Of a stretch of DNA of 22,342 bases, positions 11,240-22,342 are shown piece after piece (position 1 is the stretch's first letter; every line of letters starts with the position of its first letter). Both the position numbers and the translations under genes were made by a program. A model generated the notes under the pieces. The model saw only the letters and a list, made by a program, of their open reading frames with translations, was not told the DNA's origin and made no database searches. This DNA comes from a virus, in IMG/VR virus record IMGVR_UViG_3300044655_000950, positions 1-22,342 of that record, one strand, 5' to 3'.

Positions 11240-12997
11240 TTATGCCCCTAGTTGTGCTAATAGTGCTTCTAACGGTGGTGCGCCCTGTGGTCCTTGTACT
11301 GGTGCTTCTGCGCCCATGCCTGGCATCGCTAGTCCTGGCATTGTTTCTGGTGCGCCTTGTGGCATCGCTGCGGCTTGTCTGTCTCGTGCGCGTTGATCTG
11401 TTCGTTTAACTGCTTCGTAAAGTGTTACGTCTTTTTCTAAAACGAGCGATGTAAGGTAGGCGAGGTCGTCTGGCTGGTATGGGCCTTGCGGGTTTACTGC
11501 CTGCTGTTGAATGGATGACAGTAACGCAGATTCGACACCTTCGCCGATGATGCGGTCATGTTCTAGTTCTGGGTCTGTGATTAGAGGGTCGGCTTCTCGT
11601 GCCGACTCTTTTGACATTAGCCCTGTACCAAGTCGTTGTCCTAAGCCGATGATGAGACTGTTTACGTCTGATCCTGCTGCCGAGTATGCAACATAGTGGA
11701 AGTCTGTTTCCCAAATTTTGTTTGGTGTGTAGTTTTCTTGTCCGACTGAGGATCGTGACGGGATGAAGAACGTTTTGGTTGTGTCACCCCAATATGCTTT
11801 TTCGATTGCGATAGCGATTTTGTCTTCTTCGAATAGTGATGCTTCGAATGTTGATTGTGCTTCTTGTACACGGTAGTCAACTGTTGCTGATAGTACGGAG
11901 TCTCCGCGTCGACCTGTGCGAATGTTTGATCCTGATTCGCCGCCGAACTCTGCTGGGATAGCACCCTCAAGTCGTTCCTGTCGTTCAAGTCTGTCTAACG
12001 CTGTATCAGTTTTGTAGCCTGGGTTCAGTTGCAACTGTTGAATGTCGCCACCTTTGACGACACCGAGTACACCGTTTTTGCCGTCAGCTAACTGCAATAT
12101 TTCAGGGTTCTCACCGACACGGGCAACAAGGTATTCTTCAGGGAAAATGCCGCGCTCGATAGCGATCTCTGTTAACGCTTGTAGGCGAGCGCGAGTGTAA
12201 TACATTCCCATAACGCCATCAAACTGTCCACGGGGTTTGTCGAGTGTGATTCTGTTTGCTACGACTGCTAGTGGCATACCGGTGCGGTTCGGTACGAATT
12301 CTAAACCGAGGGCATCCATGCCTGCCCGTTCAGCAATGTTTAACCCTGGGTTGTCTTCGGCACCTAACACGATTAGTTGTAGTGAGTCTGCGTCAACGTA
12401 TTCGAGCATTGTGTATCGGCTGTCCGAGTTCACTTTGCCCATTCGTAGTTGTTCGGTGATTTCGTTGCCGTACATTTTCATTAGATATGATGCTGATGCA
12501 CGAAAGGTGAAGATGCAGTCGTCTGGCAGCATGTTGTCTGGGTCGTCTACTGGTGCTGCGAATGTGTCTAACGGGTTGCGTACAGTCCATGTTGGTGTGA
12601 GTGTGCGGAAGTTTGGTTTGAGAACTACAGCCGATTGCGAGTAGCCAAGTAGGTGTCGGGCGCGTCGACGCATTTTCATTTGCATCTTGTTTTCATCCCA
12701 AATAGATAGCATCGCTTTGCGTCGTTGACGTGCCGAAGATTTCGCTCGTTCTGAGCCTTCTTTGATTGGTGGAAAGTATGGGGTTGGCATCGTTGAAGAT
12801 ACGCGCATAGACATTTGATCTAAGCCTTGTACGAGCAGGTTTGCTACAGATGCTTTGGCGTTACGGTCCAGTTCGTTTAATGGTACGATCACGTCACCGT
12901 TTGCTAGTTCGCGTACGCGCCGCATCTGGTTGTGGACAGGGCCTGCTGCTGTGCGCCTCTGATTGTAGAGTTCGACTATTTCTTCAACTGTACGCAA
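11240..12997 (-). CDS. Portal protein
   Basis: The 585-residue product matches phage portal proteins in length and build. It has an N-terminal helical region (ELYNQRRTAAGPVHNQMRRV), a central mixed domain (SSTMPTPYFPP, VRNPLDTFAAPVDDP), the clip/stem-like segment (IQQLQLNPGYKTDTALDRLE, then IPAEFGGESGSNIRTGRRGD) and a disordered Pro/Met/Gly-rich tail. The portal forms the dodecameric ring through which DNA enters and leaves the head. It lies between terminase and the ejection-type genes, as expected. The start is a TTG at 12997: an in-frame TAA lies only nine bases upstream, no ATG or GTG is available before residue 25, and AAGGA is well spaced. Confidence 0.85.
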   Translation of the reverse strand: MRTVEEIVELYNQRRTAAGPVHNQMRRVRELANGDVIVPLNELDRNAKASVANLLVQGLDQMSMRVSSTMPTPYFPPIKEGSERAKSSARQRRKAMLSIWDENKMQMKMRRRARHLLGYSQSAVVLKPNFRTLTPTWTVRNPLDTFAAPVDDPDNMLPDDCIFTFRASASYLMKMYGNEITEQLRMGKVNSDSRYTMLEYVDADSLQLIVLGAEDNPGLNIAERAGMDALGLEFVPNRTGMPLAVVANRITLDKPRGQFDGVMGMYYTRARLQALTEIAIERGIFPEEYLVARVGENPEILQLADGKNGVLGVVKGGDIQQLQLNPGYKTDTALDRLERQERLEGAIPAEFGGESGSNIRTGRRGDSVLSATVDYRVQEAQSTFEASLFEEDKIAIAIEKAYWGDTTKTFFIPSRSSVGQENYTPNKIWETDFHYVAYSAAGSDVNSLIIGLGQRLGTGLMSKESAREADPLITDPELEHDRIIGEGVESALLSSIQQQAVNPQGPYQPDDLAYLTSLVLEKDVTLYEAVKRTDQRARDRQAAAMPQGAPETMPGLAMPGMGAEAPVQGPQGAPPLEALLAQLGA

Positions 12998-13278: not shown

Positions 13279-15261
13279 TCACGCCACAAACCATGAAGGC
13301 CGCCACATGCGCGGCGGGGCTACAGACGGGCGTAACTGTGGAACATGTAACTCTGCGAACCAATGCGCCATCACAAGATCGGTACCATTCTTTTTGTTTC
13401 GAGTCCAACTGCACATCTCCTCAACGAAAGCCAACGTTTTCCAGTTCTCCCGCATAGACGGCAACCTGACCTGACCGGTACGCCACAACGGGGGCAGCAA
13501 AGCTTCAACACCCAAGTTTTCATCCAGTTTGTTACGGCTCGTGGTGTGCGGCACAACGTTGACTCCTTGTAACGACTGCCATTTGCGCACAAAGTCGTGT
13601 GCTAACAGGAAACGTTGCGCAGCGTTCACTTCAACTATCCAATGAGAGATCGGATACCCCATGTCAAAAGACCTGTTCTGCCATTCTTCCATGATCCCTG
13701 AATAGGTGCGGGTAGAAGTGTCGTAACCCAACAGTTCTTCGGCCGTCAGTTTGCAACGCTCAACGTCAACCAAATACCTAAGGTTCGTTTCAGGTTGGTA
13801 CAGCCACCATTGGATAGCCCAAAACATTGTTGGCGACGGATCAACGGAAGCAATCGAAATGATCGGTGGCCGTAAATCTTGCGGAATGTAACCTGGTCTG
13901 CGTTCCTGATCTATACACCCTGGGTACACCACACCGTCAGGCCCCATGCCACCGGTAGCCCACACCCGTTCAATCAGATATGTGCCTTGCGCCAAATCTT
14001 GTTGCTGATAGACGACATCAAATTTTTGTGGGGTGCTATATCGGATGTACGATAAATCTTTCCATGACAAACGGTACGGGTCCAACAGAGGGCCGTCAGG
14101 CCATGCTGGTGCGTTCACCCGTTTAGATTCCTTACCGGTGTCTAGCTCGTCGTAGTATGCCTTGTAGACAAGATGATGATATTTGGATTTTTTTTCAGGC
14201 TCGACACTAGTGGTTTGGTCGGTGACATCGGAACCGTCGTAGTTGTCCTCGAAATCTTCGTAAGTGATTTTAGAGAGACAATGTGCGTACAGATCACCGG
14301 AACCCAAACGTTGCCCTATTACGGCCAGCAGGCCACCTGGGTCGCATCGTGCTTCGGCCATCGTATCCCACCGTTCCAACAGTTTGTCTCGCGCAACTGA
14401 TTCCTTAGAGTTCTCTGAGGATGCAACGTCGTCAAACAAACATAGGTCGGCGCGATGTCCGATGAACTCTGAGTCGATACCGTACGCCGAAACTGTCGGC
14501 TCTTTGTTATCTAGACCGCCCAACGATTCTTGTTCAACCACAAATTCTTCTGCCCGCCACAAAGCACCAGACGACTGCGGCTTAAACCTGCCGTAGTCAA
14601 TAGATAGGCAAGCTTCAGCGTTCAAAGCCAACCCTTTCTCCACAAGTATCGCATCAGGTTCCAACGGAAACGGGCGCTCTAGGGTTTCTCGGATACGACG
14701 CGAATACTGTTTTGCCAACGTCTGTGTAACCGAACCGATCAACACACGAATCTTACGGTTACGAACAATCATCCACACCGCAACATCATGAAACAACGTC
14801 GACTTACCTGCACCAGGCGGCACGTTCAAACAAACAAACTCTTTCTCCGGTGACTCCAACCATGCCACAATCTTGTACGCAGCATCAACCTGCCACGGGC
14901 TAGGTACACGACCCAGATAGCGTCTACGAAAATAGTCAAAATCAACTAAAGCTTGTTGCGCTTCAGGACATAACCGGTCATGCGGAATAACCGGTGGCAG
15001 ATCGGCAACATCCATAACCTGTTTCCATTGATCGGCCTGCACACCGCCTTCTTGTTTACGTACTTTCCCTTTGTCGATACGTGCCAACTCAAGGTCGGCT
15101 TGTGCTACACGCCGTTTAGCATCCCATTTTTGTGCCGTGTTGTAATGCACCGCAGCTATCTTCGCTGCTTCCTTGATAGACATACCTGAGGCTCGTGCCT
15201 GCCAGTATCGTGCCACATCTTGTGGCGGTACCTGTCGCCGCCCCGAACGGCCAGCAACCAT
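13279..15261 (-). CDS. terL: Terminase large subunit with N-terminal helix-turn-helix
   Basis: The 660-residue protein is the DNA-packaging motor. Residues about 15-46 (SGMSIKEAAKIAAVHYNTAQ) form a helix-turn-helix like that of terminase small subunits. The ATPase domain has Walker A VPPGAGKST (147-155, Lys153) and Walker B LCLFDD (273-278). The C-terminal RNase H-like nuclease shows plausible metal ligands Asp474 (SVDPS), Glu544 (IVEVN) and Asp628 (GTDLVMAHW). No separate small terminase is evident nearby, so the fused HTH may take over DNA recognition. The gene starts in a TGATG overlap with the 174-aa gene and heads the virion operon. Confidence 0.92.
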   Translation of the reverse strand: MVAGRSGRRQVPPQDVARYWQARASGMSIKEAAKIAAVHYNTAQKWDAKRRVAQADLELARIDKGKVRKQEGGVQADQWKQVMDVADLPPVIPHDRLCPEAQQALVDFDYFRRRYLGRVPSPWQVDAAYKIVAWLESPEKEFVCLNVPPGAGKSTLFHDVAVWMIVRNRKIRVLIGSVTQTLAKQYSRRIRETLERPFPLEPDAILVEKGLALNAEACLSIDYGRFKPQSSGALWRAEEFVVEQESLGGLDNKEPTVSAYGIDSEFIGHRADLCLFDDVASSENSKESVARDKLLERWDTMAEARCDPGGLLAVIGQRLGSGDLYAHCLSKITYEDFEDNYDGSDVTDQTTSVEPEKKSKYHHLVYKAYYDELDTGKESKRVNAPAWPDGPLLDPYRLSWKDLSYIRYSTPQKFDVVYQQQDLAQGTYLIERVWATGGMGPDGVVYPGCIDQERRPGYIPQDLRPPIISIASVDPSPTMFWAIQWWLYQPETNLRYLVDVERCKLTAEELLGYDTSTRTYSGIMEEWQNRSFDMGYPISHWIVEVNAAQRFLLAHDFVRKWQSLQGVNVVPHTTSRNKLDENLGVEALLPPLWRTGQVRLPSMRENWKTLAFVEEMCSWTRNKKNGTDLVMAHWFAELHVPQLRPSVAPPRMWRPSWFVA

Positions 15262-15785
15262 CAGCGTCGCTTGGGTGTTTTCGATTTAGGTAATTTATCA
15301 GATTTTCGAATCTGGTTAACTACGTTCGTTAACCCTTCAACAATTTCACGGCCACCTTGTTGAACACCAATAGTTGTAGCAACACCAGCAACACCACCAT
15401 AAACAGCACCTTTAGCACCAATTTTCACATCACGCACATACTGGTTTACTGCTCTAGTTGTTTGCCCCTGAATAATACCTTGAATCTGATTCTCTGTTAA
15501 AGCAGGTTTACGAACAAACACTTGTGACCCCGGATAACTACCACCAGGAGTGAACACTTCACTACCTTTCAAAGATTTCAAAGAATCACCAGTACGAGGC
15601 ATTGACGGCCCTTTTGGTATCGGTGCAACATATTCACCAATTTTTGTGGCAGTAGCCCGCACAGGTCGAGTAACAATTTTTTTACCGCTCGCCACAAACC
15701 CTGGCAACGGATTCCCGCCACCACTATCAATTTGCTGGTCTTTAGATTTAGGTCGATTATTACCTTTAGGTTTGCGTGCAGCCAT
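15261..15785 (-). CDS. Basic protein upstream of terminase (174 aa)
   Basis: The product begins MAARKPKGNNRPKSKDQQID and is strongly basic at both ends (ending SKTPKRR), with a Gly/Val/Ala-rich hydrophobic segment near residues 112-132 (GAKGAVYGGVAGVATTIGVQ) and a short helix after it. Position immediately before TerL is where a small terminase often sits, but no helix-turn-helix is seen, so that role is not claimed. The start is uncertain: the ATG at 15785 lacks a clear ribosome binding site, and an in-frame ATG at 15830 would add 15 residues but would run into the inverted repeat of the adjoining noncoding region. Confidence 0.65.
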   Translation of the reverse strand: MAARKPKGNNRPKSKDQQIDSGGGNPLPGFVASGKKIVTRPVRATATKIGEYVAPIPKGPSMPRTGDSLKSLKGSEVFTPGGSYPGSQVFVRKPALTENQIQGIIQGQTTRAVNQYVRDVKIGAKGAVYGGVAGVATTIGVQQGGREIVEGLTNVVNQIRKSDKLPKSKTPKRR

Positions 15786-15799
15786 AACAACATGATACA
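15772..15799 (+). promoter_or_regulatory. Possible plus-strand promoter before the structured region
   Basis: TTGCGT (15772-15777), a 16-bp spacer and GATACA (15794-15799) would place a start at about 15806, three bases before an 11-bp closing stem. Both boxes are imperfect, so this is only a candidate. It would be the only plus-strand promoter in the window. Confidence 0.3.
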
Positions 15800-15805
15800 C
15801 TAACA

Positions 15806-16211
15806 GACGTTGGCGGGTACCGTTGAGCATCCCTACCGTGGTTGAAGGAAAGTTCCGGACTCCCTACCCGCCAACATAATTTTCTTAAACAGTAGCAACG
15901 AACAAAACCATCTGCTACGATCATAACCGCAACTCACGGCTGTACACCTATTGCAAGGTGCGGGGCATTAACACCAGGGAACTGGGGTAGATGATCCTGT
16001 CACGGGATCAAGCAGCGTAACTAACGTCAACTAGTTAAACATGGTGTCGGCTAAAACAATGGCTAACGGCTACCAACTCTCACAAAGAGTAAAACGTGGG
16101 GGGAAGTACCTGTCGCACATACGTTTGACCTAGCGCACTCGCATACGCTCGCTTGCTCGCAGCACCAACCAGCACCCTTTGTCGACATGCCTCTTTTTTT
16201 GCCGTTTTTTT
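15806..16211 (+). ncRNA. Candidate structured noncoding RNA or packaging region
   Basis: No credible gene covers this stretch, yet it is rich in stem-loops. The outermost is an 11-bp perfect inverted repeat, GTTGGCGGGTA (15809-15819) with TACCCGCCAAC (15865-15875). Inside it lies GGAAAGTTCCGGACTCC, close to the conserved P4 strand of RNase P RNA. Further elements are GTAGCA/TGCTAC (15892-15918), CACCT/AGGTG, CCAG-GGAA-CTGG with a GNRA-type loop (15974-15985), TGATCC/GGATCA (15992-16010), TAACTA/TAGTTA (16018-16037) and ACTCT/AGAGT (about 16076-16090). Two T7 runs (16194-16211) might mark a 3' end. Strand and boundaries are guesses. Alternatives are a cos/pac site upstream of the terminase operon, or an origin. 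Confidence 0.4.
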
Positions 16212-16533
16212 CTCTAGCAAAACATTCCCGCCCACCACCCAAAGTGAACACAAAACCACACACAGAAACACACCCTTATAAATACCTAGGGAGCCCGTAG
16301 CTTCGGCATACCGCCGGTGTGCGGGTGGGGTGTTTGTGGGGTTTGTGGTGTTGTCGGTGGCGTTATTGGTGCGACTCGATCCGGTGCTTTTGCTTTGCCG
16401 GCGATAGATACCGGTGAACGGGTGCGCAATAGGCAAGGCTGGCCGCTATTCGAGGATCGTTCACGCTTTGCGGGTAGTTCCGGCGGTTCGTCGCCTATGG
16501 TGTGCGGTTGTTGACGGCTGCCGGCAGATATGG
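16212..16533. other. Noncoding gap, G/T-rich on the plus strand
   Basis: No gene is supported here. The half nearest the clamp gene has the same G/T-rich plus strand as the early genes, and minus-strand reading gives only Pro/Thr-rich low-complexity frames without ribosome binding sites. Several GCCGG/CCGGC words occur. It could be decayed coding sequence, an untranslated 3' end, or spacer between early and late blocks. No late promoter with good boxes was found on the minus strand. Confidence 0.4.
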
Positions 16534-16570
16534 CAAAGGCCACCGGCGTGGGGTTTGCCGGTGGCCTTTG
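16534..16570 (-). terminator. Strong hairpin after the early operon
   Basis: A perfect 14-bp inverted repeat (16534-16547 with 16557-16570), GC-rich with CTTTG at its end and a nine-base loop, starts 21 bases after the sliding-clamp stop. It would end the early minus-strand transcript. There is no extended U-run beyond the stem, so termination may be Rho-assisted, or the hairpin may protect the 3' end. Confidence 0.65.
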
Positions 16571-16591
16571 GTGCGCTGTGTGCGCTGGGGG

Positions 16592-17206
16592 TTATGGGTT
16601 TATGCGTTGGGGCATTATTAGTGTGAGTAGCTGGCCTTGTTCGGTGGTGGTTGTGTAGATGACTGGTTTGGTGGGTGCTTGCCATGTGGCCATGATTAGC
16701 GGCGTGTCTTTGGTTAGTTTTTTGTGTGCTTTGGTTATGCGTTCGAGGTAGTCGGCATTAAATCCGGTTGGCTCGTGGGGTGTTGTGGCGGGTGTTGTTG
16801 TTTGTAGTAGTTGTTTTGTGTTGGGGTGTTCGGCGTTTATTGTTTGGCCGTTGTAGCTGCCGATCGTGGTTTGGCCGCTTGTGGCTGTTAGTTGCCAATA
16901 GTGGCCGTCGCTGGTGAGTGTGGCTGTGGTGGTTGCTTTTCCGGCGGCTTTGTTCAGGTTTTTTAGTGCTGTGGTTAGTTCTCTGGCGTCGATGAGTGCC
17001 GGCTGGCCGGTGGTGATCGGTTCGGCCGGTGTCCATTGTGCGAGTGTGTAGCTGTCTGTTGCTGTGATTGTTTCGGCGGTGATATAGATACCGGTGAGAC
17101 AGTATCTTGTCCGGTCTGTGCTTGCGTGTAGTGCTACGGCTTCGACGATTTTGGTTAGATCGTTTAGGCCGGTGCTGGTTGTGTGTGTGGTTGTTTTGGT
17201 GTTCAT
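16592..17206 (-). CDS. dnaN-like: DnaN-like DNA sliding clamp, shortened two-domain form
   Basis: The 204-residue protein matches the second and third domains of bacterial beta clamps. TRYCLTGIYI (33-42) and TATDSYTLAQ (48-57) correspond to the 'RPVLTGVLFE...VATDSYRLA' block of domain 2. GFNADYLERI (148-157), PTKPVIY (178-184) and LTLIMPQRI (194-202) correspond to the C-terminal 'FNPKYLLDAL...PALI...YLLMPVRL' block. A canonical clamp has about 370 residues in three domains, so domain 1 is absent; the length is like the two-domain clamps of T4 type. It should tether a polymerase to DNA. The start at 17206 gives an ATGA overlap with the preceding gene and removes a low-complexity extension. The sequence is unusually Thr-rich. 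A polymerase was not found in the window. Confidence 0.78.
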   Translation of the reverse strand: MNTKTTTHTTSTGLNDLTKIVEAVALHASTDRTRYCLTGIYITAETITATDSYTLAQWTPAEPITTGQPALIDARELTTALKNLNKAAGKATTTATLTSDGHYWQLTATSGQTTIGSYNGQTINAEHPNTKQLLQTTTPATTPHEPTGFNADYLERITKAHKKLTKDTPLIMATWQAPTKPVIYTTTTEQGQLLTLIMPQRINP

Positions 17207-17394
17207 TGGTTGTTTTCCGTTTCTGTGTGGTTGGTGTTTTGTAGTGTTGTTTCGTTTAGTTTTATCTGTTGGCGTATCCATACGAGGCAACGATCAGCCC
17301 ATTGTTTAGCTTCGTCGGTTGACCATTGATCTGGTTCGTTTAGGTAGTCGATTAGGCCGGTTATCTCGTCGTAAAGGTTATATGTTTTGGGCAT
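17203..17394 (-). CDS. Hypothetical 63-aa protein
   Basis: The product starts MPKTYNLYDEITGLIDYLNE and is a small acidic helical protein (WSTDEAKQWADRCLVWIRQQ) with a hydrophilic Asn/Thr tail. AAAGGA upstream gives a good start. It is joined to the clamp gene by an ATGA overlap. No family recognised; helical size would suit a partner or regulator of replication proteins, which is only a guess from context. Confidence 0.6.
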   Translation of the reverse strand: MPKTYNLYDEITGLIDYLNEPDQWSTDEAKQWADRCLVWIRQQIKLNETTLQNTNHTETENNQ

Positions 17395-17398
17395 TGGT

Positions 17399-17536
17399 TT
17401 ATCCTTTTTGGTTGTGTTTGTTTGTTGGGTGGTTGTTGCGGCTGCGTTGCTCTCGGCTGGCCGAGATATATAGCGGGATAGTCATTGCTGCGAGACATAG
17501 TGCTGCGCTGAGTAGTGCGCCGGTGATCTCGTTCAT
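17399..17536 (-). CDS. Small single-pass membrane protein (45 aa)
   Basis: MNEITGALLSAALCLAAMTI carries one hydrophobic helix (residues about 5-25) followed by a basic, hydrophilic tail (REQRSRNNHPTNKHNQKG), suggesting N-out/C-in insertion. Size and topology would fit a holin-like or other small membrane effector, but nothing specific shows this. The start at 17536 overlaps the 136-aa gene by ATGA and discards an arginine-rich upstream frame. Confidence 0.6.
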   Translation of the reverse strand: MNEITGALLSAALCLAAMTIPLYISASREQRSRNNHPTNKHNQKG

Positions 17537-17943
17537 TGTGCTATCTCGTCGAGGTAGGCAGATAAGTTTGGGTAGGTGTTGCGGGTTGTGGCCTGATCTC
17601 TGCCGTCGTAGGTTGTGATGGCTATGACTTGGCCGTCGTTGCTGTCTCGTGTGATCTCGCAATGAGGGCCGCCGCAAGTTCTTAGCATTTCTATGCGGGT
17701 TTGTTCTCGGTTATCTGTGCGCAAGATTTTGAACTCAAGAATAGTTTCGTTGATCCATTGCGTTATTGCTTCGTATGGTTCGCCGGTGTTCTCAAACTCT
17801 AATTCGGCGTAGGCTTCGGCTAGTCGTTCGTCGTCGTCGTCAGTTCTGACGGCTTCGCAGTCGAGTAAGTTTTCAAGTGCGTCTAGTTCGCATTGAATAG
17901 ACCGGCAATAATCTAGAGCCGTGTTCGTGGTTGCTGTGTTCAT
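17533..17943 (-). CDS. Hypothetical acidic protein (136 aa)
   Basis: The acidic, largely helical N-terminal half (ALDYCRSIQCELDALENLLD, then TDDDDERLAEAYAELEFE) is followed by a beta-rich C-terminal half around LRTCGGPHCEI and VIAITTYDGR. The GGPxC with two nearby cysteines might bind metal, but no family is recognised. It is the first gene after the promoter at 17997-18025, so it heads the operon that includes the sliding clamp. The ribosome binding site (GGGAG) is 12 bases from the ATG, somewhat far. Confidence 0.65.
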   Translation of the reverse strand: MNTATTNTALDYCRSIQCELDALENLLDCEAVRTDDDDERLAEAYAELEFENTGEPYEAITQWINETILEFKILRTDNREQTRIEMLRTCGGPHCEITRDSNDGQVIAITTYDGRDQATTRNTYPNLSAYLDEIAQ

Positions 17944-17969
17944 ATATTTAACGCTCTCCCAAGCGTGGC

Positions 17970-17988
17970 GGCCATTGGTTTAATGGCC
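17970..17988 (-). promoter_or_regulatory. 5'-terminal stem-loop of the clamp operon leader
   Basis: GGCCATT/AATGGCC, a perfect 7-bp stem with a five-base loop, begins about two bases after the predicted transcription start. There is no U-run, so it is not a terminator. Its placement matches the stem-loops at the two other strong promoters in the window, suggesting a shared mRNA-stabilising leader. Confidence 0.6.
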
Positions 17989-17996
17989 TATTAGAG

Positions 17997-18025
17997 ACTA
18001 TAGGGCAAAAATTAGAGTGTGTCAA
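17997..18025 (-). promoter_or_regulatory. Near-consensus sigma70 promoter for the clamp operon
   Basis: TTGACA (18020-18025), exactly 17 bp, TATAGT (17997-18002) on the minus strand. The predicted start is near 17990. The -35 box lies in the last codons of the 63-aa gene that ends at 18012, the -10 box lies just beyond it. It drives the 136-aa, membrane, 63-aa and clamp genes. Confidence 0.82.
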
Positions 18026-18203
18026 GTTTTGTCTGTAATTCTTTTAGAGTAAAGGCGACTAGTTCGGCAGTTGGTATTGCCGGCGGGAATAGTGGCCGGA
18101 TTACGCCGAGTCCGGCGGCGTATTGTTTAGCGTCGTCGAGTGTTGCGAAGCTGCCAAAGATCACGAGGCCGGCGGCGGTGTTTATTTCTACTAGGTAGGC
18201 CAT
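18012..18203 (-). CDS. Hypothetical 63-aa protein
   Basis: MAYLVEINTAAGLVIFGSFA has an alternating beta pattern followed by a helix (TLDDAKQYAAGLG) and a C-terminal helix (TAELVAFTLKELQTKLDTL). This looks like a small folded alpha/beta protein. The frame is well supported by composition, but no ribosome binding site precedes the ATG. The promoter -35 for the next operon is embedded in its 3' end. Function unknown. Confidence 0.5.
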   Translation of the reverse strand: MAYLVEINTAAGLVIFGSFATLDDAKQYAAGLGVIRPLFPPAIPTAELVAFTLKELQTKLDTL

Positions 18204-18335
18204 GCATAGATCGAGGAGTGTTTGCCGGTTTTGTGTAAAGGTTTTGCGGCAAGTTTTTTTGAGATCACGCCGGCCACCAACTAGCGCAAAGTTTTGTGCG
18301 AGTGTGGCAGCCGGCGGTGTTGGTGGCGTTGGTGG

Positions 18336-18509
18336 CTATTGTTGCTGTTGGTGGCGGTGTGCTCGCCAAGCTAGGTGTGTGAACGGATACACGCACACGG
18401 CGCGGATCAGCCAGTCGAGGCCGGTGCTGTCGTTGCCGGTGAACAATGCGATCACAAATAGGATCAGGCACGTTGTTGTGAACGCGTCGGTAGTGTTAGT
18501 GCGGATCAT
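18336..18509 (-). CDS. Small membrane protein (57 aa)
   Basis: Starting MIRTNTTDAFTTTCLILFVI, the product has a hydrophobic segment at residues about 11-24, a short polar loop (GNDSTG) and a second weaker one at about 32-46, ending in a His/Gln tail. Two short helices with a tight turn suggest a membrane hairpin; a holin-like or superinfection role is possible but unproven. The start at 18509 forms a TAATG overlap with the 66-aa gene. About 130 bases after its stop contain no gene I can support. Confidence 0.6.
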   Translation of the reverse strand: MIRTNTTDAFTTTCLILFVIALFTGNDSTGLDWLIRAVCVYPFTHLAWRAHRHQQQQ

Positions 18510-18709
18510 TACAGAAACTCTCCGTCTTCTTCGGTGGTGATATCCCAAACACCTATCTTTTCGGTGTCGATACCGTGATGGTTTAGTAGCTGTTGTTGTG
18601 CGTATTGTTCGGCGTGTTCTTCGTCTGGTGCTTGAACACAAGTAGTTAATGTGAAGTGGTCTCCGGTGAACTTTACTGTATATAGATATTCTGTCTGTGT
18701 TCTACTCAT
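18509..18709 (-). CDS. Hypothetical acidic protein (66 aa)
   Basis: MSRTQTEYLYTVKFTGDHFT forms beta strands, followed by a helix rich in Glu/Ala/Gln (DEEHAEQYAQQQLLNHHG) and a terminal strand (KIGVWDITTEEDG). This beta-alpha-beta layout resembles small phage proteins of unknown role. ATGA overlap with the 76-aa gene; its ribosome binding site is the repeated GGAGACAAC element. Confidence 0.65.
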   Translation of the reverse strand: MSRTQTEYLYTVKFTGDHFTLTTCVQAPDEEHAEQYAQQQLLNHHGIDTEKIGVWDITTEEDGEFL

Positions 18710-18936
18710 TGGTTGTCTCCTTTGTTTAGTTGTTTTAGTGCCATATATAGTTTGCCGGCGATGTCGTCGTCATTGTCATTGTATTTACCGTCGCCTAAAT
18801 AAGCTGTTTCCCATTGGCCGGTTTCGGTGTCGTAAACGGTTTCGTTGTTTAAGAACTTGGTTTCTGCGTCGGTGTCGATATCCCATTCGCCGGTATCGGT
18901 ATCGTAAGAGACAATGAAGTAGTGGTTTTTACTCAT
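18706..18936 (-). CDS. Hypothetical acidic protein (76 aa)
   Basis: A very acidic protein with repeated 'DTxTGxWxxD/xA' blocks: YDTDTGEWDIDTD and YDTETGQWETAYL. The repeat suggests internal duplication of a short beta hairpin. The end reads LKQLNKGDNQ, nearly identical to the end of the 51-aa protein at 19464-19619; the same bases act as ribosome binding site for the next gene. Strong negative charge could mean DNA mimicry, which is speculative. Confidence 0.65.
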   Translation of the reverse strand: MSKNHYFIVSYDTDTGEWDIDTDAETKFLNNETVYDTETGQWETAYLGDGKYNDNDDDIAGKLYMALKQLNKGDNQ

Positions 18937-19238
18937 CGGCCTATCTCCCGCATATATTCTGACGGCGTTAATGCTTGCGCAAGATCAGGGGTTGTGCCGT
19001 AGCTGTGAGACCACTCCGCATAATTGATACCGTAGCCGTTGCGTTCGCTGTCGGTCATTGTTTCCCATACGCCTATCTCGTCGTCGCCCCATTGGGATAC
19101 GTCGATGATGACTAGCCGTTTAGCGTCGCCATACGTGCCGGTATCGGTGTCGATCCATAGTGCGGGCGGGTAGTAGTCGTTCATTGTGTCTTGCGGTATG
19201 GCCGCAAGGTATTCGTTCACGTGTCTAAGCGTTGTCAT
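18933..19238 (-). CDS. Hypothetical protein (101 aa)
   Basis: MTTLRHVNEYLAAIPQDTMN opens the protein, followed by DTDTGTYGDAKRLVIIDVSQ and WGDDEIGVWETMTDSERNGY. The 'IGVWE/D' word also occurs in the 66-aa protein, hinting at related small folds. GGAGACAAA seven bases upstream supports the start at 19238, which overlaps the previous gene by 14 bases. No function recognised. Confidence 0.65.
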   Translation of the reverse strand: MTTLRHVNEYLAAIPQDTMNDYYPPALWIDTDTGTYGDAKRLVIIDVSQWGDDEIGVWETMTDSERNGYGINYAEWSHSYGTTPDLAQALTPSEYMREIGR

Positions 19239-19464
19239 TGTTTGTCTCCGTATCTAATGTCTCAATAGCTACCCAACGAATATCGCCCCACCAATCGAGA
19301 TTATCTAATGCCTTTGTCGTAGCGGCGGCGATCTCTGCCCATTGGCCGTCGTTAATGTCGCGGTTAAGGTTCATCGCAACGTGGTCGCGATCCCAATACG
19401 CGACGATGATCTCGTCGTCGGGATCGTATTCTTTAAGTTGTTCGATTAGATATTTAACTCGCAT
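19225..19464 (-). CDS. Hypothetical protein of the 'MRVKxLIExLKEYDPDxE' type (79 aa)
   Basis: The N-terminus MRVKYLIEQLKEYDPDDEII is a motif found in many small phage proteins of unknown role, where a helix is followed by a DPDDEI turn and a beta strand (VAYWDRDHV). The rest carries acidic and aromatic residues (LDWWGDIRWVAIETLD). TAATG overlap with the 51-aa gene and a well-placed AAGGGAG ribosome binding site. Confidence 0.72.
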   Translation of the reverse strand: MRVKYLIEQLKEYDPDDEIIVAYWDRDHVAMNLNRDINDGQWAEIAAATTKALDNLDWWGDIRWVAIETLDTETNNDNA

Positions 19465-19619
19465 TAGTTGTCTCCCTTGTTTAGTTGTTTAATCTCGCGG
19501 TTGAATTGGCGGATCGCCTCACGCCGGCAGTAGCCATAGTATTGGCGTTGTATTAGGTGGCCGGTGTTATCGGTGGCCGCTATAGACCAGCCAGCTTCGC
19601 GGTTGCGTTCGATAATCAT
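19464..19619 (-). CDS. Hypothetical small basic protein (51 aa)
   Basis: MIIERNREAGWSIAATDNTG is followed by a basic helix (YCRREAIRQFNREIKQ) and the tail LNKGDN. The ATG at 19619 forms a TAATG overlap with the 126-aa gene and is preferred over upstream frame extensions. Fold and size resemble small beta-beta-alpha phage proteins. The C-terminal coding sequence doubles as the ribosome binding site of the next gene. Confidence 0.6.
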   Translation of the reverse strand: MIIERNREAGWSIAATDNTGHLIQRQYYGYCRREAIRQFNREIKQLNKGDN

Positions 19620-19999
19620 TACGCTATTTCCCATTCTGGAATATATACCGGTTTTACAGTAAATGATCTGCCGGTAGGTACGTCGTGGTGTGATAGGCAG
19701 CAATAAAGTGTGTCGCTATCTACCGAATAACGCAAACTCCAATCGCCGCGAATAGTTATGGCTCGCAATAATTCTTCGGTGGTTTTGACCGTAAAGTTTC
19801 CGGACACGTTGTAATTCCATAACGGTAGGCCGTCGATAAAGAAGTCTCCGTTAGTGATATCTAGTAGGTGTTTTGTGTTTTCGTCAAAGTCTGCGAGTAC
19901 CTCGTACCAGCAACCGTAGCAATCGTCTATGTATTCGCCGTTTTCGCCGGTACAGGTACAGTTGTTAGTTATTTGGTATTCTTGTTTAGTTGTATCCAT
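19619..19999 (-). CDS. Hypothetical protein with N-terminal cysteine cluster (126 aa)
   Basis: Residues about 12-32 hold four cysteines in NCTCTGENGEYIDDCYGCW, i.e. C-x-C...C-x2-C, which could bind zinc. The remainder is an alpha/beta domain (GDFFIDGLPLWNYN, then TTEELLRAITIRGDWSLRYS) with a second CC pair. The family is unknown to me. It is the first gene behind the promoter at 20044-20072, with GGGAG well placed before the ATG. Confidence 0.68.
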   Translation of the reverse strand: MDTTKQEYQITNNCTCTGENGEYIDDCYGCWYEVLADFDENTKHLLDITNGDFFIDGLPLWNYNVSGNFTVKTTEELLRAITIRGDWSLRYSVDSDTLYCCLSHHDVPTGRSFTVKPVYIPEWEIA

Positions 20000-20020
20000 G
20001 TCTAGACTCCCATCTAGTAG

Positions 20021-20035
20021 CCCTATCAGGTAGGG
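20021..20035 (-). promoter_or_regulatory. 5'-terminal stem-loop of the mid-early operon
   Basis: CCCTA/TAGGG with a five-base loop lies at about +2 to +17 of the transcript predicted from the promoter at 20044-20072. No U-run follows. Similar in place, though not sequence, to the leaders at 2209-2226 and 17970-17988. Confidence 0.5.
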
Positions 20036-20043
20036 ATATTTAG

Positions 20044-20072
20044 AGTGTAGGGCAGCCGGCGAGCGATGTCAA
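20044..20072 (-). promoter_or_regulatory. Near-consensus sigma70 promoter of the mid-early operon
   Basis: TTGACA (20067-20072), a 17-bp spacer and TACACT (20044-20049) on the minus strand, with predicted start near 20037. It begins immediately after the TAG of the 43-aa gene and drives the run of small genes from 19999 to about 18012. GCCCTA before and CTCTAA around the -10 region are shared with the promoter at 17997-18025. Confidence 0.82.
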
Positions 20073-20073
20073 A

Positions 20074-20205
20074 CTATTTTTTATATTTTTTTTGCCACGT
20101 TTCAATGATCGTTGCGAGCTGTAGATCGGTGTATGCGGCGAGCGGTGTGTCGTCGTTGCGCAACGGTTCTTTAATGTCGTCGAACAATGACGGTTGATCG
20201 TTCAC
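20074..20205 (-). CDS. Small hypothetical protein with GTG start (43 aa)
   Basis: Reading from a GTG at 20205, the frame encodes VNDQPSLFDDIKEPLRNDDT, a helix LQLATIIETWQ and a lysine tail ending YKK. The GTG overlaps the stop of the preceding gene as GTGA, exactly like its neighbours' ATGA junctions, and the frame ends just before the next promoter. The SLFDD opening is common in small phage proteins. Function unknown. Confidence 0.6.
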   Translation of the reverse strand: MNDQPSLFDDIKEPLRNDDTPLAAYTDLQLATIIETWQKKYKK

Positions 20206-20510
20206 GTTGCTTGCCAAACTCGGATCGGCCTTGCGTGGCACTCCGGTCTTTTCGATTGTCGGTAGCGGTCAGTAGGTGTGATGAGGCCGGCGCGGTGTGC
20301 GGCGATCATTAACGCGCCAAGTGCGCGTGGTTCGTGTGGTGTTGGTAGCGACGTTTCGGATAGTTGTTGCCAAATGTCGTCGGTTGTGAAGTCGAAGGTG
20401 TTGGTGGCGATTTGTTTGATGATGAGCATTGTTTGTGCTGCCCAAGTTGGGTTGGTGTTGGTGGCGACTTGTGTGATTGCTTTGTCGCGGGCTTCGGTAG
20501 CGGTGTTCAT
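20202..20510 (-). CDS. Hypothetical winged-helix-like protein (102 aa)
   Basis: From MNTATEARDKAITQVATNTN the protein is helical. It includes FDFTTDDIWQQL and a segment PHEPRALGALMIAAHRAGLI followed by RPECHARPIRVWQA. The 'RALGALMxxAxxAGxIxPT...RPECHxRPIxVW' pattern is a recurrent family in actinophages, with the layout of a winged helix (helix-turn-helix plus beta wing), so DNA binding or a replication accessory is plausible but not shown. The start at 20510 gives an ATGA overlap with the upstream gene. Confidence 0.72.
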   Translation of the reverse strand: MNTATEARDKAITQVATNTNPTWAAQTMLIIKQIATNTFDFTTDDIWQQLSETSLPTPHEPRALGALMIAAHRAGLITPTDRYRQSKRPECHARPIRVWQAT

Positions 20511-20743
20511 TGTTCCCATCCCAGGTTGTTTGCTCGCCATGTTGACGGCGTGTGGTTTGCTTCAACTGCTTGTTTCATTTCAGGGTCTTCGTAGAGTCTG
20601 ACGATGTGAATACATGGATCGTTGCCGTTGAATAGTTCTTCGTCTTCGAAGATTGTTGTTGGTAGTGCGTCGTGTATTTCGCAGACCGGTGGGCCGCACC
20701 ATCCTTGTTTGTATCCGTGTTGTATCCATTCGTCGAATGTCAT
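20507..20743 (-). CDS. Hypothetical protein of the 'GWCGPPVCxxHDxxP' family (78 aa)
   Basis: MTFDEWIQHGYKQGWCGPPV, then CEIHDALPT, then DPCIHIVRLYEDPEMKQAVE and ANHTPSTWRANN. This order is a small family common in actinophages. Three cysteines and two histidines (CGPPVCxxH and PCIH) suggest a metal site. Function unknown. ATGA overlaps on both sides (20740-20743 and 20507-20510) tie it to the zinc-ribbon and winged-helix-like genes. Confidence 0.8.
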   Translation of the reverse strand: MTFDEWIQHGYKQGWCGPPVCEIHDALPTTIFEDEELFNGNDPCIHIVRLYEDPEMKQAVEANHTPSTWRANNLGWEQ

Positions 20744-20877
20744 TTGGTTTTGCCTTTGGTGGTCATGGTTTGTGTTTGGTGGTTGTTTGCGCAGGTCGGT
20801 GGTTCAGACAGTTTTATGTAGGTGGTGACTGTGTTGCCGCATGTAGGGCAAAGCCATTCGTGTTTGATCCCCTTCAT
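20740..20877 (-). CDS. Small zinc-ribbon-like protein (45 aa)
   Basis: The frame reads MKGIKHEWLCPTCGNTVTTY followed by IKLSEPPTCANN, a knuckle CPTC plus a later cysteine and a histidine, as in zinc ribbons. The 'CPxCGxxVTxxxxLSEPPTC' pattern recurs in short actinophage proteins. It ends in an ATGA overlap with the next gene and starts six bases after the 87-aa gene's stop. No clear ribosome binding site, so reinitiation is likely. Confidence 0.72.
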   Translation of the reverse strand: MKGIKHEWLCPTCGNTVTTYIKLSEPPTCANNHQTQTMTTKGKTK

Positions 20878-20883
20878 CGCAAG

Positions 20884-21147
20884 TTAGAACGGTTCTTCGT
20901 CAGCCAGGTTCACCGGTGCTGCTGCTGGTTTTGGTGCCGGTTTTGTTTTGCTGACGTTCACGGTGCCTGCCGGTGTAAGTGACCATAGTTCTGCGTCATC
21001 AAACTTGGCGACACGTTTGCCGAGGATCACAGTCTTTGTGTCACCGGCTTTCGTTGTGACTTCGACTTCCATGTTTGGTTCGCCTGCGAACTCTTTGATG
21101 CGCACACCCCATGAGTCGTCTTTAAGTTTGTAGAATGATGCTGACAT
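20884..21147 (-). CDS. Small protein with SSB-like acidic C-terminal tip (87 aa)
   Basis: The N-terminal domain (MSASFYKLKDDSWGVRIKEF, then MEVEVTTKAGDTKTVILGKR) looks like a five-strand beta fold with the 'YKLxDxSWGVR...VTTKxGxTKTV' pattern seen in actinobacterial phage proteins. A Pro/Ala/Lys linker follows (KTKPAPKPAAAPVN), then ADEEPF. A flexible linker ending in acidic residues plus Pro-Phe is the hallmark of bacterial single-stranded-DNA-binding proteins, where it recruits replication partners. Whether this protein binds DNA is inference: it is shorter than SSB (about 110 residues for the OB fold alone). AAAGGCGG precedes the ATG. Confidence 0.75.
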   Translation of the reverse strand: MSASFYKLKDDSWGVRIKEFAGEPNMEVEVTTKAGDTKTVILGKRVAKFDDAELWSLTPAGTVNVSKTKPAPKPAAAPVNLADEEPF

Positions 21148-21194
21148 AAATGTTCCGCCTTTAAGATAGTTTTTTAGTGGGTTAATTATTTGGA

Positions 21195-21431
21195 TCAGAG
21201 TTCTGCACCCTGGGCCATAGCTATTCTCATCCGTTCAACCATCTGTTTGTAGGTTGATAGTTCTCTGTTGAGATCAATGGATGCCTGAATTGTTATGTTC
21301 AAGTCTTTTACTAGTTGTTCGTTTTGTTGTTTTAGTTCGTCGCGTTCTTCACGTACACGATCTAAACTGTTTTGCAGGTCGTTGCATCGGGCATCCCACA
21401 TCGCCATTTCTGCTGCCAATGTATCTGTCAT
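21195..21431 (-). CDS. Hypothetical coiled-coil protein (78 aa)
   Basis: Almost the entire sequence is a predicted coiled coil: LQNSLDRVREERDELKQQNE and QLVKDLNITIQASIDLNREL. ATGA overlap with the WhiB-like gene (21428-21431). It probably dimerises; no function can be given. Confidence 0.68.
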   Translation of the reverse strand: MTDTLAAEMAMWDARCNDLQNSLDRVREERDELKQQNEQLVKDLNITIQASIDLNRELSTYKQMVERMRIAMAQGAEL

Positions 21432-21712
21432 GATTCCATCTTAGCCTTATATTTGCGGGCGTACAAGGTTCTTTCGCGTTCTTTAGGTGATCGGCCACCC
21501 CACACGCCGTACATGACTTCGTTGTTTAACGCCCAATCGAGGCAGCGTTGTTTGACGGGGCAATCGGAACAAAACTTTTTGGCTTCCAATGTTAAGTGCC
21601 GTTGGCCTTGTTCTGGGAACCATGTGATGCCGTCTTCCATGTGGCATTTTGCGTGGTCCATCCACCGGTTGTCTTTGTCGTGGAGTTTGAATGAGGTTAA
21701 TAGTTCTCCCAT
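21428..21712 (-). CDS. whiB-like: WhiB-like iron-sulfur regulator
   Basis: From MGELLTSFKLHDKDNRWMDH, the 94-residue protein has the four cysteines of WhiB proteins: Cys23 (AKCHM), then Cys48-x2-Cys51-x5-Cys57 (CSDCPVKQRC). The WhiB turn GVWGG (69-73) and a basic C-terminal tail (RSPKERERTLYARKYKAK) follow. WhiB proteins hold a [4Fe-4S] cluster and bind the primary sigma factor SigA to change transcription. The ATG at 21712 lies four bases after the lysozyme stop, with GGAAAG as ribosome binding site; the longer frame start inside the lysozyme gene is less likely. The presence of WhiB points to an actinobacterial host. Confidence 0.9.
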   Translation of the reverse strand: MGELLTSFKLHDKDNRWMDHAKCHMEDGITWFPEQGQRHLTLEAKKFCSDCPVKQRCLDWALNNEVMYGVWGGRSPKERERTLYARKYKAKMES

Positions 21713-21716
21713 AGCG

Positions 21717-22232
21717 TCACTTTCCCCAGGGGGTGAACCCGTTTCCGTTGGTTTTTTCGGCGTAGTCATAGAGGGCTTTAGCCGCGACAAGGTTCAGGTA
21801 AGGATCGAATAGGTCTTTACAGTAGTTGATTTTGCCTAATGTTTGCAAGTATCCGTTCGGATACCAGCGTGTAGGCAGGCACCAGGATCGGTCATTGATT
21901 TGGGTTAAGCCGATGTCGGTTGATTTGTCGGCGTTCAAAGTGGTGTTGTGCGCATGGTTTAGGCATCGTGATTCGCGGTGCAGGATGCTGTCAAGGGTGG
22001 GTAGCTGCTCGATGGTCCAACCGGCTTTGATGGCTGTATCCCACCATTGGGGGCATAGGGCTTTAGGTTTGGGTACAGCTTCAGAGTCACGCCAGACGCG
22101 TTGTGTTGCGTTCTGTGCGACGATAACCGTCGGTGCTGTGTTCACCACAGGGGGTGCTTCGGCGAGGCTTGTGACACCCCCAACTGTGAAACTTACCGTG
22201 AGTACGGCAAATAGCCGTGATAGTGCATCCAT
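21717..22232 (-). CDS. Secreted lysozyme/SLT-like muralytic protein (171 aa)
   Basis: An N-terminal hydrophobic segment (residues about 5-24: SRLFAVLTVSFTVGGV) ending in an AEA-type cleavage site suggests a signal peptide. The lysozyme-like domain has a probable catalytic Glu87 in HRES, an STDIGLTQIN motif (104-113) and the terminal NGFTPWGK typical of transglycosylases of the SLT/goose-lysozyme class. Four cysteines (60, 90, 118, 138) could form two disulfides outside the cell. It would hydrolyse peptidoglycan glycan strands, as endolysin or as a virion/host-wall factor. AAGGGAG upstream is a good ribosome binding site. It sits directly before the WhiB-like gene. Confidence 0.85.
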   Translation of the reverse strand: MDALSRLFAVLTVSFTVGGVTSLAEAPPVVNTAPTVIVAQNATQRVWRDSEAVPKPKALCPQWWDTAIKAGWTIEQLPTLDSILHRESRCLNHAHNTTLNADKSTDIGLTQINDRSWCLPTRWYPNGYLQTLGKINYCKDLFDPYLNLVAAKALYDYAEKTNGNGFTPWGK

Positions 22233-22267
22233 TTTGTTCTCCCTTTATTGTAGTTGATTCGGTTAAA

Positions 22268-22284
22268 CCCTTACCGTATAAGGG
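22268..22284 (-). terminator. Hairpin at the end of the preceding gene
   Basis: CCCTTA/TAAGGG, a 6-bp stem with a five-base loop, overlaps the stop codon of the gene cut by the right edge and is followed by TTTAA. It may be a weak terminator or attenuator before the lysozyme gene. Confidence 0.4.
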
Positions 22285-22342
22285 CTATCAGTTCTGCGAA
22301 CTCGTTTAGTGTCATCAACACTATCCCGTCAGAGTTACCTTC
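22271..22342 (-). CDS. Hypothetical protein, C-terminal end only
   Basis: An open frame entering from the right edge encodes 23 residues (EGNSDGIVLMTLNEFAELIA, then LIR) and a TAA at 22271-22273. The hydrophobic helix suggests a real C-terminus, but too little is present to name it. Confidence 0.4.
   Translation of the reverse strand, partial: EGNSDGIVLMTLNEFAELIALIR

Follow-up and report, generated by a model that had tools for sequence, protein, structure and literature searches.

A virus record of 22,342 bases from IMG/VR (the window, that is, the whole stretch of DNA analysed) almost certainly carries a structured RNA on its plus strand. The gene of this RNA spans from about position 15928 to at least 16107, and its 3' end may lie within 16107-16211. 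It is best read, and with fair probability, as an independent gene of the phage whose product, a structured non-coding RNA, would act in trans, and to which we assign neither a specific job nor a partner. This reading was based on the presence of seven stems, two pseudoknots and a GNRA hairpin, on the lack of a protein product and on the sigma-70-like promoter that the RNA usually has of its own. The novelty is at the level of the RNA family only, and a new mechanism is not claimed.

Every plausible gene of the window was located on the minus strand (Table 1), including a major capsid protein gene, and no tRNA was found in it. The terminase, with 660 amino acids, is a full-length large subunit whose residues 44-649 aligned to the terminase profile, and the presence of the WhiB gene suggests an actinobacterial host. 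The initial annotation had described roughly 400 bases next to the terminase operon as coding for nothing credible. This was confirmed, since no credible protein-coding open reading frame was found between 15785 and 16592 and the frames were mostly closed in the homologues too, none of those spanning the core being open in more than 11 of 84. The length of the core varied from 154 to 183 nt among relatives, with no three-base period.

The same annotation had pointed to a region rich in stem-loops, a claim that proved to be understated. A structure of 45 pairs was written from inspection of the aligned sequences, and 94.9% of these pairs were canonical in the 37 sequences of alignment A1 (made with MAFFT from sequence only; alignment A5 was likewise sequence-only), compared with 76.1 ± 0.7% after shuffling. 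Covariation in A1 was 0.527, against 0.191 for the shuffled alignments and 0.05-0.08 for the slid controls, the latter leaning in favour of the structure because it was read off the same sequences. The proposed covariation analysis on homologues was carried out with a home-made, R-scape-like null that takes the tree into account, with the substitutions re-placed on a FastTree tree in 20 replicates. When all column pairs were scanned in 84 sequences, 19 exceeded every null pair; 15 of them were drawn pairs, including pairs of S1, S2, S3, S7 and PK2, and the other four were register or neighbour effects. Additional drawn pairs were found at E 0.1-0.2. Furthermore, 154 G-U and only 18 A-C cells were counted among the proposed pairs, and this excess indicated that the plus strand is the RNA. 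The folding energy was unremarkable (z = -1.17 for the plus strand and -0.28 for the minus strand), so that the window alone does not beat chance; its homologues do. These near-zero scores are what would be expected from chance folding, or from a coding stretch mistaken for an RNA, but this explanation was refuted by the covariation controls, the wobble asymmetry and the closed frames also being against it, and it can be virtually dismissed.

Table 1. Coordinates of the features in the window.
Feature	Positions	Strand	Remarks
Portal	11240-12997	-	
Large terminase	13279-15261	-	
Extended -10 of the small hairpin element	15793-15801	+	TG-A-TACACT; from sequence
Small conserved element	15809-15875	+	11-bp perfect stem 15809-15819/15865-15875; ~67 nt
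-35 of the main RNA promoter	15893-15898	+	TAGCAA; 17 bp from -10
Extended -10 of the main RNA promoter	15913-15921	+	TG-C-TACGAT; TG 15913-15914, TACGAT 15916-15921
Core of the structured RNA	15934-16107	+	Model R1, 172 positions; covariation
Stem S1	15939-15966	+	15939-15941/15964-15966 and 15945-15948/15957-15960
Pseudoknot PK1	15951-16015	+	S1 loop 15951-15954 with 16012-16015
Stem S2	15974-15985	+	CCAG-GGAA-CTGG; GNRA tetraloop 15978-15981
Stem S3	15992-16010	+	7 bp; 15992-15998/16004-16010
Stem S4	16018-16037	+	16018-16022/16033-16037; loop with invariant AACG
Stem S5	16042-16075	+	16042-16045/16072-16075; encloses S6 (~16049-16053/16060-16064 in the window)
Pseudoknot PK2	16066-16097	+	16066-16068 and 16071 with 16094-16097
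Stem S7	16076-16090	+	16076-16080/16086-16090
Invariant G-run	16098-16103	+	GT, then 5-7 G
U-rich tracts	16194-16211	+	Possible 3' end
Weak DNA clamp match	16592-17290	-	
Late-promoter-like element	16276-16312	-	Putative function; TATA-rich 16276-16288 plus GGCATACC 16305-16312; similar element in relatives
WhiB	21428-21790	-	

Model R1 gave 159 bits (E 2e-50) on the core of the window, which belongs to its training set. Among the 37 sequences, S1 was paired in 100%, with changes on both sides at five of its seven pairs. S2, the tetraloop hairpin already noticed in the initial annotation, was also 100% paired, with two covarying pairs and a loop that is GGAA in the window and GAAA, GCAA or GUAA in relatives. 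Further stems had been expected beside it, and they were present: S3 was 98.5% paired (both-side changes at 7/7 pairs), S4 88% (4/5 pairs covarying), S5 98% (covariation at the outer pair), S6 88% (one-sided variation only) and S7 83% (both-side changes at 5/5 pairs). PK1 was 100% paired, and its pair 15952-16014 swapped between U-A and C-G in 84/84 sequences; this pair alone reached an E of about 0.2 in the tree-aware scan. PK2 was 97% paired in 41 sequences, and its pair 16071-16094 alternated between G-C, C-G and U-A beyond the tree-aware null.

The 3' domain (S5, S6, S7, PK2 and the G-run) was held in these 41 sequences, which come from three lineages. In this set the pairs of the domain were 92.1% canonical versus 78.1% when shuffled, with a covariation of 0.388 versus 0.155. 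The G-run was present in 175 of 175 loci found by pattern, a search pattern that itself demanded four G. The 5' domain types differed among relatives.

A terminase-seeded search yielded 79 loci, and the non-coding stretch 15934-16104 was kept in most of them despite the varying distance to the terminase. With a DNA pattern taken from the 3' part, independent of the terminase, at least 120 stretches were obtained, and two narrower patterns added more, reaching a total of 233 loci with the pattern in which certain contigs are counted twice. The RNA was found in more than 200 IMG/VR loci from three phage lineages with unrelated terminases. R1 detected it in 68 of 75 terminase-seeded loci. Among the seven that were missed, L024, L036, L051 and L071 are truncated, the RNA is absent from L011, and L049 and L054 carry a diverged RNA-like sequence, approximately 400-700 nt upstream of the terminase and behind a similar promoter, which keeps the GAAA hairpin and a G7 run and is not detected by R1. 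One copy per genome was observed in ten contigs of ~40 kb. A contig of 79,213 bases (G011, L366/L367), considered as a two-copy genome, was not used as such evidence because it bears two terminase/portal sets that differ from each other, both accompanied by an RNA, and is probably chimeric. The pattern matches in L100, L117, L083, L169, L174, L184 and L187 were due to chance and had no significant model match, and in L308 a chance match had masked the true RNA at 1530-1603, recovered with R2, a model of the 3' domain derived from R1. A type-B hairpin string without R1 or R2 match was seen in L306, L311 and L329, which may hold a further variant of the 3' domain. No blastn homologue was found in cultured phages and plasmids (one 31-nt match at E 0.8), nor any homologue in 84,980 bacterial genomes by the strict 3'-domain pattern or by TerL, and Immanuel3, ct2KA10, MW202803 and D29 gave no significant model match.

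Lineage 1 comprised 203 loci with the RNA, which was always near the terminase genes and divergent from the late operon. The -35 of the RNA frequently overlaps the ATG of the gene that comes first, whichever this is. The lineage 2 terminase has no detectable similarity to that of lineage 1 and is ~34% related to Arthrobacter phages, SSB and WhiB being the first genes. The RNA of this lineage, counted in 13-14 loci on one occasion and in 19 of 37 lineage-2 loci on another, was likewise divergent from the late operon. In lineage 3 it was found in a single contig (L166, identical to L370), whose terminase is T4-like and which also has a small-subunit-like gene, and was absent from 40 other loci of the lineage, many of them short. 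In that contig the RNA lies on the late-gene strand inside a 2.6-kb non-coding gap, accompanied by a similar promoter region, a hairpin with a GGGA loop upstream of it and a tail rich in U, and the relatives of the genes flanking it come mostly or exclusively from lineage 3. The recurrence with unrelated terminases, once on the late-gene strand, favours a self-contained RNA that would probably act in trans over a cos/pac site or a cis element. This evidence comes mainly from lineage 2, in which the RNA still diverges from the late operon, and from the lineage-3 contig, whose support is suggestive because it is a single one.

The constant proximity to the terminase in lineage 1, where a small terminase subunit was not recognised, would also suit a packaging element, either a motor RNA like the phi29 pRNA or the cos/pac site upstream of terminase that had been suggested before. 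The packaging ATPase of phi29 is small, unlike the full-length large terminase present here; no Rfam pRNA match was obtained, and the lineage-3 phage has its small-subunit-like gene yet keeps the RNA. As for a cos/pac site, G-U covariation on one strand is not expected of DNA, and this, together with the late-strand copy in a non-coding gap, disfavours it as the main explanation. Packaging was consequently considered a highly unlikely function. The 127-nt overlap at the ends of three contigs was read as an assembly k-mer and is uninformative on the physical DNA ends.

The RNA is very probably transcribed independently. Of 91 non-redundant loci, 55 had a sigma-70-like promoter, complete with extended -10, ahead of the core, compared with 7 of 455 control windows; the match failed in the other 36 loci under the strict rule. 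The -35 of relatives is TTGACA, TTGCAA or TTGTCA, 16-18 bp from the -10, and in the window transcription is predicted from the promoter sequence to start near 15928. In most relatives, but not in the window, promoter and core are separated by an additional hairpin whose loop is of the GGGA type. Downstream, many loci have U-rich tracts, TCTTTTTT was found in 34 of 97 regions, and clear terminators follow the RNA immediately in L052 and L172. An intrinsic terminator was rejected as the general 3' end, with 15/127 cases versus 18/254 in controls and thus no enrichment.

An opposite-strand element, TATA-rich plus GGCA(T/G)A, was present in 77 of 97 non-redundant downstream regions, 120-380 nt past the RNA, and also in L011, a locus without the RNA. 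A late leader starting at this promoter-like element would cover the RNA, which, added to the divergent orientation in lineages 1 and 2 and to the -35 often lying on the first late ATG, would be in line with a cis-antisense regulator that pairs with the late mRNA leader or interferes with late transcription. Nevertheless, the predominance of G-U over A-C reveals selection on the plus-strand fold, pseudoknots are superfluous for antisense pairing, and in lineage 3 the RNA shares its strand with the late genes. Such a regulator is therefore decidedly unlikely.

The region 15806-16211, initially treated as one, was structured as described and joins two conserved elements, the main core being only one of them. 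The 11-bp closing stem exists and is perfect, but it closes a separate element of ~67 nt and not the whole; it is distinct from the main RNA and located upstream of the main promoter. The plus-strand promoter proposed just before this first stem was also found, as an extended -10, and in relatives TGnTAnnnT again precedes GTTGGYGGG with the same spacing. The small element, 63-74 nt long, was found as a single copy in each of about 66 loci; its covariation support was modest, with 20 distinct sequences from few subfamilies. By inspection, CCG 15820-15822/CGG 15856-15858 and GAG 15825-15827/CTC 15860-15862 would cross, making an internal pseudoknot possible. A string resembling CR-I of bacterial RNase P RNA (GAAGGAAAGTTCCGGACTCC, 15844-15863) was discarded, as it had no Rfam match and was not conserved in relatives.

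As regards the function, the RNA, if it is the autonomous trans-acting RNA that we favour, would be transcribed by the host RNA polymerase early, ahead of phage-specific late transcription, the only basis for this timing being the host type of the promoter. Acting in trans, it would display conserved unpaired bases, together with the invariant G-run, on its 3' pseudoknot domain (GGUGUCGGCU...ACGGC...GUGGGGGG), and a protein or a nucleic acid of the host or the phage would dock to this surface. The near-universal retention within the clade points to a real job.

An origin RNA like RNA II, whose hybrid would persist at the G-run and prime phage DNA replication rightward, was the favoured reading until the skew control failed across clades, for which reason it was demoted to an unlikely rival. 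The precedent is RNA II of ColE1, a structured, host-transcribed RNA with initiator-free priming (PMC5043065), and the invariant G-run would fit. GC skew flips at the RNA locus in the window clade and in eight ~40-kb contigs with the gene strand unchanged, and the third-codon skew is +0.38 to the right of the RNA and decays with distance. In addition, a ~40-kb relative (G005, L287/L288) has genes for recombination and nuclease proteins as well as a C5 methyltransferase (its PHROG matches being those among the first 25 of the 98 families), and none of its scanned proteins was recognised by Pfam as a polymerase, helicase, primase or initiator; the window has the weak clamp-like match. However, the flip is absent or reversed in L076, L109, L053, L103, L124, L052, L183, L112 and L189, which bear the RNA, strong in L011, which does not, and absent in L049/L054. 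The sequence 3' of the G-run is A/C-rich and not purine-rich, and the RNA unit also occurs in other lineages. Separately, the third-codon GC/AT skew on same-strand genes of the window (15001-22342) and of the eight ~40-kb contigs L279-L296 changes sign near 16 kb and decays over ~14 kb rightward, a clade-specific flip that is not tied to the RNA.

More generally, it seems rather unlikely that the RNA serves as a component of some core machinery of the phage and not as a regulator, for instance a ColE1-like primer at an initiator-free origin (no replisome genes being apparent) or a part of a packaging motor without a recognised small terminase subunit. Whatever its job, it is a compact two-pseudoknot RNA, common in uncultured, probably actinobacterial phages and crossing unrelated terminases, with a size that suits structure determination, and hence a well-defined target for functional work.

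The search against Rfam (4,227 families) gave no match beyond noise, up to E 10, for the window or its homologues, in keeping with the earlier failure to place the sequence, and no description of the RNA was found in the open-access PMC literature, beyond which one could exist. The phi29 packaging RNA also comes from a phage, has a similar length and lies near packaging genes, and differs in that no Rfam match links the two and that the RNA described here accompanies a full-length terminase, and also unrelated terminases. ColE1 RNA II is likewise a structured non-coding RNA with a host promoter, that of the phage RNA being predicted by sequence only, but it runs ~550 nt before the origin, whereas no antisense partner was found for the phage RNA; a location of the latter at a replication start would agree with the skew in the window clade, an agreement that fails across clades. 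Cluster A mycobacteriophages (L5, D29, StarStuff) produce, early and in abundance, a non-coding RNA whose function is unknown (PMC5712189). Both are actinophage non-coding RNAs without an assigned function, that of cluster A being made early; it differs in its size of ~500 nt and its position at the right end of the genome, and neither R1 nor R2 gave anything significant in the D29 genome. GOLLD and ROOL are structured RNAs of phages and prophages whose function is unknown, and GOLLD has a conserved 3' and a variable 5' region (PMC12286853). The suggested membership in either family was unsupported by any Rfam model match in the window or homologues, and the core of ~172 nt contrasts with the more than 800 nt of many GOLLD members and the also larger ROOL. 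The conserved 3' domain of the 41 sequences, combined with differing 5' types, nevertheless recalls GOLLD, as a resemblance and not as homology.
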